IMG/VR virus record: IMGVR_UViG_3300034106_003848
Location: 1-20,841 of that record
Length of the DNA: 20,841 bases
Source of the DNA: a virus
Strand: one strand, 5' to 3'
The notes below the pieces were generated by a model. It did not search any database. It was not told the DNA's origin and was given only the letters and a program-made list of their open reading frames with translations. Shown in pieces: positions 16,884 to 18,647 of this stretch; positions within the stretch are counted from its first letter, which is position 1; each line of letters starts with the position of its first letter. Both the position numbers and the translations under genes were made by a program.

Positions 16884-16906
16884 ATCCTCCACTATAGATA
16901 GCACAC
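16884..16906 (-). promoter_or_regulatory. Control motif copy 1 (leftward)
   Basis: Read leftward this is GTGTGCTATCTATAGTGGAG followed by GAT, ending three bases before the ATG of the 172-aa gene. It shares GTGCTATCTAT-N-GTGGAG with the rightward copy at 17001. The GGAGGA ribosome site lies inside it. It may be a phage-type promoter, an operator or a conserved 5' leader. Confidence 0.5.
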
Positions 16907-17000: not shown

Positions 17001-17034
17001 GTGCTATCTATTGTGGAGAGTGCGTAAGGGAGTG
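17001..17034 (+). promoter_or_regulatory. Control motif copy 2 (rightward)
   Basis: GTGCTATCTATTGTGGAG followed by AGTGCGTAAGGGAGTG. The first 18 bases match the leftward copy at all but one position, and the last 23 match copy 3 at 21 of 23. A T-rich run (ATTATTTTTTGGG) lies just upstream. Confidence 0.5.
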
Positions 17035-17177: not shown

Positions 17178-17211
17178 GTGCTGTTCACTGTGGAGAGTGT
17201 GCAAGGGAGTG
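17178..17211 (+). promoter_or_regulatory. Control motif copy 3 (rightward)
   Basis: GTGCTGTTCACTGTGGAG followed by AGTGTGCAAGGGAGTG. It aligns with copy 2 over 34 bases with about 28 identities, 177 bp downstream. Its end forms the left arm of a 7-bp hairpin (AGGGAGT/ACTCCCT, 17204-17225), which copy 2 lacks. Confidence 0.5.
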
Positions 17212-17241
17212 ACGTATAACTCCCTGTGTATGCGGGCAGTC

Positions 17242-17283
17242 AAAGGAGGTGTTACCTTGCTTGGTGCTATCCGGTCGCCTTGA
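17242..17283 (+). promoter_or_regulatory. Extended Shine-Dalgarno with possible 8-codon leader peptide
   Basis: AAAGGAGGTG (17242-17251) is a ten-base match to the anti-Shine-Dalgarno consensus. Five bases later a TTG could start an 8-codon reading frame (LLGAIRSP) ending with TGA at 17281. It lies about 140 nt before the first real start codon and upstream of the ribozyme. It may be a leader peptide, a ribosome standby site or chance. Confidence 0.3.
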
Positions 17284-17315: not shown

Positions 17316-17369
17316 GGCCGAAACTGGACGGGCGTCCAGTCCGCCAGTTATGCTGGCGCTGATGAGGCC
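17316..17369 (+). ncRNA. Type II hammerhead ribozyme (self-cleaving)
   Basis: All core elements of a hammerhead ribozyme are present in the right order. The 3' strand of stem II, GGCC (17316-17319), is followed by GAAA (17320-17323), whose last A pairs with T17340 to open stem III. Stem III is CTGGAC/GTCCAG with a GGGC loop (17324-17339). Next come T17340 and C17341, the cleavage-site nucleotide. Stem I is CGCCAG/CTGGCG with a TTATG loop (17342-17358), then the conserved CTGATGA (17359-17365), and the other half of stem II, GGCC (17366-17369). Stems III and I are closed, so the open stem is II: a type II topology, the kind known from bacteria and phages. Cleavage is predicted between 17341 and 17342, 46 nt before the start of the 67-aa gene. 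Stem II is only four base pairs, and loop-loop tertiary contacts cannot be confirmed by eye. Confidence 0.9.
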
Positions 17370-17387
17370 AATTCCTTGGAGGTTGCT

Positions 17388-17591
17388 ATGAGCAACAGTC
17401 CGTACAGGCGGGCCTGGGCAGTGGTGAAGATTTTCACTGCTGCTCCCGGGTTCGGGCCTGGGCAATTCGTATTCCTCGGGCAGGACAACTTCCGGCCCGA
17501 TGAGTCGCAGATCGACTTTGAACGTCGCGTCTGCGAGCGGTTTGACATCGACAATCGCCATCGGTTGCGCTATGTCGAAATCGACATGTGA
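17388..17591 (+). CDS. 67-aa protein directly downstream of the hammerhead
   Basis: The start ATG has GGAGG five bases upstream, 9 nt after the ribozyme. A longer in-frame reading through the ribozyme is rejected because it would need translation of the structured leader. The product begins MSNSPYRRAWAVVKIFTAAP and ends RHRLRYVEIDM, a small alpha/beta-looking domain with GFGPGQFVFLGQDNF in the middle. I do not recognise the family. It is the first gene of the rightward transcript and lies between two structured RNA elements, so its translation may be set by RNA processing. Confidence 0.75.
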   Translation: MSNSPYRRAWAVVKIFTAAPGFGPGQFVFLGQDNFRPDESQIDFERRVCERFDIDNRHRLRYVEIDM

Positions 17592-17597
17592 CGGGAT

Positions 17598-17794
17598 CCG
17601 AGTCCGGGCAGGTGGATGCGGCTAACGGGCGAACGCCCAAGTAAGTCCGAATGCTGCCTGCCTGGGCTCGGTTGCCGGTGTCCGAATAGCCCCCTCTGGG
17701 CAAAACGCATTCGACGGGGTGCGTAGTCAACGCGGGGAGGACCGCCACGCAAGTGGCCTGCGATCCAACCGTTGGCGCAGAGGGTGCTATTCGG
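17598..17794 (+). ncRNA. Candidate structured RNA with two long stem domains
   Basis: The 240 nt between the 67-aa gene and the next one hold no gene but fold strongly. Domain A is a 15-bp stem (17598-17612 with 17657-17671, two G-T wobbles) enclosing a GGGC/GCCC hairpin with a GAAC loop (17627-17638). Domain B is closed by a 17-nt stem with one mismatch (17682-17698 with 17778-17794). Inside it are a 7-bp hairpin (17706-17723), a GCCAC-GCAA-GTGGC hairpin with a GNRA loop (17744-17757) and a CCAA/TTGG hairpin (17765-17775), so B is a multi-branch junction. CGAATGC (17648-17654) can also pair with GCATTCG (17708-17714), a possible A-B pseudoknot or switch. I cannot match it to a known RNA class. 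The strand is inferred from the flanking genes; the stems exist on both. Confidence 0.6.
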
Positions 17795-17831
17795 CTGCCG
17801 CTTGGTAGTCGGTTCTTTCATGGAGGTGCGT

Positions 17832-18647
17832 ATGGTCGCAAGATCACGCACCGCCCGGCCGCTCGGTGTCGTTCTGCACCGGGGCCAGTCGCCGTTCGAT
17901 GGCGCGCCGTATGTGGTCATCATGCCACTCGGCAAGTCTGGGAACGTCAAGACGGGCAAGATGCTCCAGACCTATATCATTAGGTCGCACATGCATCCGG
18001 TCCAGGCGGTGCGTTCAGGTGGCGATTCGGCCATCTGCGGTGATTGCCCGATGCGTGGGCTGGTGACGTTTCCGAAGCGTACGCCGAGGAAGAAACGCCA
18101 GCGCCACCGGGCCTGTTATGTCAACGTCGGGCAGGGACCGGCCATGGTCTACGGTGCGTTCAAACGTGGACGCTATGTGGACTATGTGCCTGCCCTGCAT
18201 GATCAGTTCATCCGGGGCCGGAAGGTGCGATTCGGCACCTACGGCGAGCCGGTGCTGATCCCGCTGGAGCTGGTGGCTCATCTGGCCAGTCTGTCGGCCG
18301 GCTGGACGGGCTACACCCACCAGTGGGCGAACCTCGCCTTTCGGGGCTACCAGCGGTTTCTCATGGCGTCTGTCCATGGCAAGACCGGGCCCTGGTCCCG
18401 GGAGCATGCGAAGAGTCTCGGCTGGCGAACCTTCCGCACCATGCGGGATGGCGAGCCGGACGACGAGGAGGTTCTCTGCCCGGCATCTGCCGAGGCGGGG
18501 AAGCGGTTGACCTGCGAGCGGTGCAACCTGTGCGACGGTGCCGGAAGGCGCAGGGCCGGGCTGCAACTGGTGGACGTTTACATCCCCGGGCACGGTGGCA
18601 AGGCGATTATGTCTGCCATCCGCCACCTGCCCATCCTTCAGGCGTGA
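17832..18647 (+). CDS. DUF7227-like Cys-containing phage protein
   Basis: This 271-aa protein starts at ATG 17832 with GGAGG upstream; ATG 17820 is an alternative four codons earlier. Conserved-looking blocks are AICGDCPMRG (68-76), RACYVNVGQGPAMVYGAFKR (94-112), VRFGTYGEPVLIP (132-144), GWTGYTHQW (157-165), ASVHGK, GWRTFR (197-202), EVLCPAS (213-219) and TCERCNLCDG (227-236), then PGHGGKAIMSAIRH. Together they match a phage family I remember as DUF7227, with CGDC, CYV, GYTHQW and C..C.LC signatures. The cysteines could bind zinc or an Fe-S cluster. Members are often near DUF932-type genes, as here; their function is unknown. The long 5' region is the candidate structured RNA. Confidence 0.8.
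   Translation: MVARSRTARPLGVVLHRGQSPFDGAPYVVIMPLGKSGNVKTGKMLQTYIIRSHMHPVQAVRSGGDSAICGDCPMRGLVTFPKRTPRKKRQRHRACYVNVGQGPAMVYGAFKRGRYVDYVPALHDQFIRGRKVRFGTYGEPVLIPLELVAHLASLSAGWTGYTHQWANLAFRGYQRFLMASVHGKTGPWSREHAKSLGWRTFRTMRDGEPDDEEVLCPASAEAGKRLTCERCNLCDGAGRRRAGLQLVDVYIPGHGGKAIMSAIRHLPILQA

Follow-up and report, generated by a model that had tools for sequence, protein, structure and literature searches.

The element at positions 17316-17369 of the window (the window being the whole stretch of DNA that was analysed, an IMG/VR virus record of 20,841 bases that comes from an environmental sample and has its portal, terminase and major head genes on the minus strand) is well supported, as judged from its sequence, as a type II hammerhead ribozyme of 54 nt on the plus strand, with a predicted cut at 17341|17342, and it thus adds a sound new member to a kind that has been known from phages since 2011. 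It belongs, by its features, to a short-loop subclass of these ribozymes, and it probably acts in intercistronic processing, whereby a downstream gene of 67 amino acids would obtain an mRNA with its own hairpin-capped 5' end.

As to the structure, 17316-17369 reads GGCC-GAA-ACTGGACGGGCGTCCAGT-C-CGCCAGTTATGCTGGCG-CTGATGA-GGCC, and thus all of the core elements are present, as the earlier note had claimed, in the type II order, which is stem II upstream strand, GAAA, stem III, U16.1-C17, stem I, CUGAUGA and stem II downstream strand. The upstream strand of stem II (GGCC, 17316-17319) pairs with the downstream strand (GGCC, 17366-17369), these pairs being kept in the kin of this phage and in 51 viral relatives. 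The core segment G12 A13 A14 A15.1 (GAAA, 17320-17323), invariant in both of the alignments in which it was followed (A1 and A3), leads into the closed stem III (17323-17340), with seven base pairs (ACTGGAC/GTCCAGT, 17323-17329 with 17334-17340) and a GGGC loop, position 17340 being U16.1. The predicted scission, between C17 (17341) and 17342, is placed by established hammerhead chemistry after the H17 that follows U16.1. The closed stem I is a 17-nt hairpin, CGCCAGTTATGCTGGCG (17342-17358), with a loop of the GUNANGC type, and it is followed by the core segment CTGATGA (C3-A9, 17359-17365), near-invariant in A3. Pattern and descriptor scans find the features that define type II, a CUGANGA plus GAAA core with an A15.1-U16.1 pair and an H17 before the cut, loops closing stems I and III, an open stem II, and the order II'-III-I-II. 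Taken alone, the 54 nt have exactly the three-way junction as their minimum-energy fold (-25.8 kcal/mol, z -2.6), and in the predicted fold of a longer leader stem II is absent from the minimum-energy structure. The three stems described earlier as perfect are all present, one of them, stem I, with a U-G pair beside six Watson-Crick pairs.

A chance match, judged very unlikely in the earlier note, is rejected by three lines of evidence. The pattern CGAAAC-N-GTC-N-CTGATGAG has a single match in the window and none in 100 shuffles. The Rfam model for type II hammerheads, RF02276, is the top match among 4227 Rfam families in the window, at 27.5 bits, with an E of 0.07 when all the families are searched and of 1.7e-5 when this family is searched alone. 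Finally, a covariance model of our own, R1, built from 51 short-loop viral hammerheads with the window excluded, scores the element at 66.1 bits (E 3e-19 in 256 kb); it gives 58.6-68.5 bits to the ribozymes of the kin, one of which (L144) is the same as a training member (L113), and at most 18.6 bits to other kin loci. The Rfam check proposed in the earlier note did return a match, while the score falls short of the curated gathering score of 37. We read this shortfall as a limit of the Rfam model and not of the motif, as the cut-off also excludes most of the short-loop copies in the kin and in one viral contig, L011, in which only 3 of 10 matches pass. Most of the pseudoknot-type copies in three other contigs (L010, L013 and L019) do pass. 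More generally, among the matches listed for viral contigs L002-L121, the RF02276 cut-off appears to miss much of the subclass with a 17-nt stem I.

The relatives of the phage provide evidence of a different kind. No near relative by DNA was found in the phage collection, and the terminase of the window matched one record only, at 26%, and no bacterial genome contig. A search with the phrog_2554 gene at 17832-18647, the next rightward gene after the 67-amino-acid open reading frame (ORF), of a family of unknown function (E 9.9e-58), returned 24 close relatives with 73-97% identity (L122-L145) and many distant ones. The ribozyme is found upstream of this gene in seven phages, the window and L122, L123, L124, L131, L132 and L144, and is absent in about 18 other close kin. 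When 23 kin records were scanned over their whole length, five had one hammerhead each (the record of L144, outside this set, also has one); no hammerhead was found in the terminase neighbourhood, and no other ribozyme class was found at the same site in the hammerhead-less kin (Rfam, E up to 1). The core is the same in the window and in the six ribozyme-bearing kin. The sequences of stems I and III differ among the kin, L124 being nearly the same as the window, yet they stay paired, which is evidence for selection on the fold: 98.4% of the pair cells are paired in the kin as against 20-41% when the partners are slid by 1-3 columns, with the proviso that the alignment rows were found by a descriptor that itself requires pairing, which flatters the wider viral set most. 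Seven pairs, including four of the seven in stem III, are altered on both sides among the seven related phages, so that the stems are kept by compensatory change in homologues, as the type II definition has it, and the comparison of homologous loci suggested in the earlier note has turned out in favor of the ribozyme. Stem II hardly varies among the kin and does vary in the wider viral set. With the core, the covariance models and the compensatory changes in agreement, the identity proposed earlier (type II, scission at 17341|17342, a product with a 5'-OH starting with stem I) is well supported.

The assignment to a subclass rests on a wider search, by hammerhead pattern, through viral contigs, which covered at least 120 loci and, by the descriptor, yielded at least about 150 distinct type II hammerheads. 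Among the matches listed, 61 stem I hairpins are exactly 17 nt long and 87 are 21-25 nt long, two length classes outside of which there are few hairpins. The loop of the 17-nt class follows GUNANGC (G 94%, U 94%, A 77%, G 75% and C 91%), and stem II has four base pairs in 48 of 53 members of this class and mostly three in the other type II hammerheads, again among the matches listed. The two groups also differ, among these same matches, in the pseudoknot between loop I and the tail: a pseudoknot of at least four pairs is seen in 66% of the other type II hammerheads versus 27% with swapped tails, and in the 17-nt class it stays at the control level (4% versus 5%). In the window, the loop TTATG has no pseudoknot match in its tail, and such a pseudoknot was therefore rejected for this ribozyme. 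With its 17-nt stem I hairpin, GUNANGC loop, four-pair stem II and predicted lack of a pseudoknot, the element of the window belongs to the short-loop subclass, for which no paper was found in a search of the open literature. In the contig L011, nine or more short-loop hammerheads form an array on a single strand, and most of the copies have an ORF stop nearby.

Type II hammerheads have been described as abundant in bacteria and phages and as placed around single genes, with in vitro cleavage of phage-type clusters and with one cluster cleaved in E. coli (Perreault et al., 2011; PMC3088659), and a 2017 review (PMC6155905) describes them as flanking ORFs of small unknown proteins. The element of the window is like these (PMC3088659, RF02276) in its permuted order, intact core, C17 cleavage site, short stem II and location beside phage genes. 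It differs from the majority form of Perreault et al. in having no pseudoknot between loop I and the tail, and it is further set apart by a stem I of exactly 17 nt, a GUNANGC loop, a four-pair stem II and a score below the Rfam cut-off; the tertiary contacts of type II are usually Watson-Crick according to the 2017 review, and the short-loop class is without these. Of the specific examples (PMC3088659), the prophage clusters (Agrobacterium tumefaciens ardA, Azorhizobium, C. scindens), for which a role in dividing long phage RNAs into messages of one gene each has been proposed, are likewise located between small phage genes on one strand, whereas the ribozyme of the window is a single copy, its activity is predicted, and the known relative of its gene is in only one other phage. 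Another example is HHphage of the haloviruses HF1 and HF2 (PMC3088659), which shares the early-region placement just before the start of a viral gene, at a distance of 13 nt there and of 18 nt, from ribozyme to start codon, in the window. HHphage, however, is a structural variant from an archaeal virus, before a helicase gene, while the window has a canonical core before a gene of unknown function.

The setting of the ribozyme is more complex than a position just before the first rightward gene, as described in the earlier note. A gene does follow: the Shine-Dalgarno sequence GGAGG (17378-17382), 9 nt after the ribozyme, precedes an ORF of 67 amino acids (17388-17591) that has no match in Pfam or PHROG and a single relative, at 93% amino acid identity, whose ribozyme differs at one loop base. 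A terminator-like hairpin (17791-17812, identified by pattern match only, with similar hairpin sequence in the kin) would close this short transcription unit. The description is only partly right, as the ribozyme is itself preceded by a Shine-Dalgarno sequence, AAAGGAGG (17242-17249), and by an 8-codon mini-ORF (17257-17283; TTG start, MLGAIRSP) in the place of a first cistron. The start of this mini-ORF lies 25 nt after GCGGGCAG (17232-17239), the end of a shared leader element, and the first gene in most kin starts 21-25 nt after the same element; its stop lies 32 nt upstream of the ribozyme, and it is also present in L124, with one synonymous change.

Other features of the region were noted in passing. 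The segment 17257-17315, in which the mini-ORF with its strong Shine-Dalgarno sequence is followed by GGGGAAAACCGGCCCCTTTT, looks like a leader peptide with a weak terminator, an arrangement seen only in the window and in L124. A leader patch at 17201-17254 contains small hairpins (GGGAGT..ACTCCC and GTATGCGGG) and has been conserved in several kin, whether or not they have the ribozyme. The motif GTGCTATCTATNGTGGAG is repeated on both strands of the divergent region (16887-16904 on the minus strand, 17001-17018 and about 17178 on the plus strand, the third copy being looser), with no copies expected, and the repeats are perhaps promoters or operators; the motif is absent from all the kin loci searched. 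The non-coding stretch 17592-17813, between the 67-amino-acid ORF and the phrog_2554 gene, contains two long hairpin domains (z -5.6) and has no Rfam match. In the kin its outer stems persist with changes in their sequence, and its inner parts are of very different lengths or missing. It is a candidate for a new structured RNA or a hairpin-shaped insert flanked by TGCCGTT-like repeats.

Among the kin, the ribozyme mostly separates the first small cistron from the second within the first rightward unit, and the earlier description of an operon leader is in this sense partly right, the location being mostly not a plain leader. The first cistron ends in a TAG that extends onto the first ribozyme base in L122 and L131, and it stops 2 nt short of the ribozyme in L132; L144 has the ribozyme straight after the leader. 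Downstream of the ribozyme, L122, L131 and L132 have genes that in L127, L129, L130, L133 and others are located directly behind the leader hairpin, with no ribozyme. The ribozyme is thus optional, sister phages having the same downstream genes without it, and L135 and L141, each with two cistrons and without a ribozyme, do not need such processing. A similar placement is seen in the wider set. Counting ORFs of at least 40 codons with a Shine-Dalgarno sequence, and among the matches listed, a stop codon upstream falls within -4 to +2 of the first ribozyme base in 94 of 143 viral type II hammerheads (66%) versus 55 of 3080 random positions (1.8%), a start with a Shine-Dalgarno sequence follows within 45 nt in 114 (80%) versus 475 (15%), and both are present in 78 versus 15, the effect size being only indicative, as the control positions were random on the same strand, not intergenic, and members of the same array are not independent of one another. 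No paper on the abutment of type II hammerheads to stop codons was found in the open literature.

It is this stop and start placement, together with the gene order in the kin, that leads to the reading as an intercistronic cut site, and the sequences suggest that phage type II hammerheads may be cut marks between neighboring genes on one mRNA. Processing of long phage transcripts has been proposed before (Perreault et al., 2011; PMC3088659). In a plus-strand transcript of the window, the ribozyme would fold as the RNA emerges, and a cut at 17341/17342 would separate the leader and the mini-cistron from the 67-amino-acid cistron. By hammerhead chemistry, the upstream fragment should have stem III as its terminal hairpin and carry a 2',3'-cyclic phosphate, and the downstream mRNA should bear a 5'-OH and open with the hairpin of stem I, its Shine-Dalgarno sequence following after about 35 nt. 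The polycistronic RNA would thus be split, and the inserted second gene may gain its own hairpin-capped 5' end, which can be likened to the leader hairpin directly before the same class of gene in the ribozyme-less sister phages. We infer from these features that cleavage takes place in the cell and that the phage benefits from it. Counting against this role in the window, no upstream ORF of appreciable length terminates at the ribozyme, the sole upstream cistron being the 8-codon mini-ORF; the loss of stem II from the predicted fold of the longer leader and the two-cistron kin that lack a ribozyme (L135 and L141) also count against it. Moreover, should RNase E gain direct entry, the topic of PMC4191395, a 5'-OH may give the mRNA no protection.

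The same placement could be read as a switch gated by the ribosome, with the ribozyme sensing the translation of the first gene and cleaving only when the upstream cistron is untranslated, a reading that we consider unlikely. With the stop codon abutting the ribozyme, as in three kin and in 66% of the 143 viral cases among the matches listed, a terminating ribosome would cover GCCGAAA and the 5' side of stem III. However, the tight packing of phage genes alone could place any intergenic element after a stop, and gating would be weaker in the window, where a ribosome at the mini-ORF stop, 32 nt upstream, would barely reach the ribozyme. Its extension to viral type II hammerheads at large, as punctuation of the form stop, ribozyme, Shine-Dalgarno and start, with the upstream ribosome gating cleavage and with the short GUNANGC loop replacing the pseudoknot, is likewise doubtful. 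If true, a gated ribozyme would make the decay or the processing of the operon depend on whether the preceding gene is being translated.

It is rather improbable that the benefit lies in trimming of the leader, with cleavage freeing the Shine-Dalgarno sequence or removing an inhibitory leader and thus switching on translation of the 67-amino-acid gene. The 9-nt distance to the Shine-Dalgarno sequence and the strongly structured leader, as predicted, would suit this reading, but the predicted accessibility of the Shine-Dalgarno sequence is no higher after cleavage, either in the window (0.37 to 0.20) or in six kin, and unmasking by cleavage thus finds no support in the predicted folds. A role for the 5' fragment, as a short leader RNA that is released with a defined 3' end (stem III) and acts as a small RNA, would agree with the conservation of the leader patch in several kin; this patch, however, is also present in the ribozyme-less L127, L135 and L141, and we regard such a role as very improbable. 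Least credible is a relic or passenger, carried with the small ORF as a cassette and of no present benefit: the occurrence among the kin is patchy, and near-identity to L124 begins about at the ribozyme, the sequence just upstream being different, but persistent pairing in stems of divergent sequence and an intact core in all seven phages speak against it.

Overall, the Rfam cut-off largely missing the short-loop subclass suggests that phage hammerheads are under-counted. The strict placement between stop and start codons, and the presence of sister phages that have the same gene with and without the ribozyme, make the purpose of these hammerheads, under discussion since 2011, a question that can be tested in reporters.
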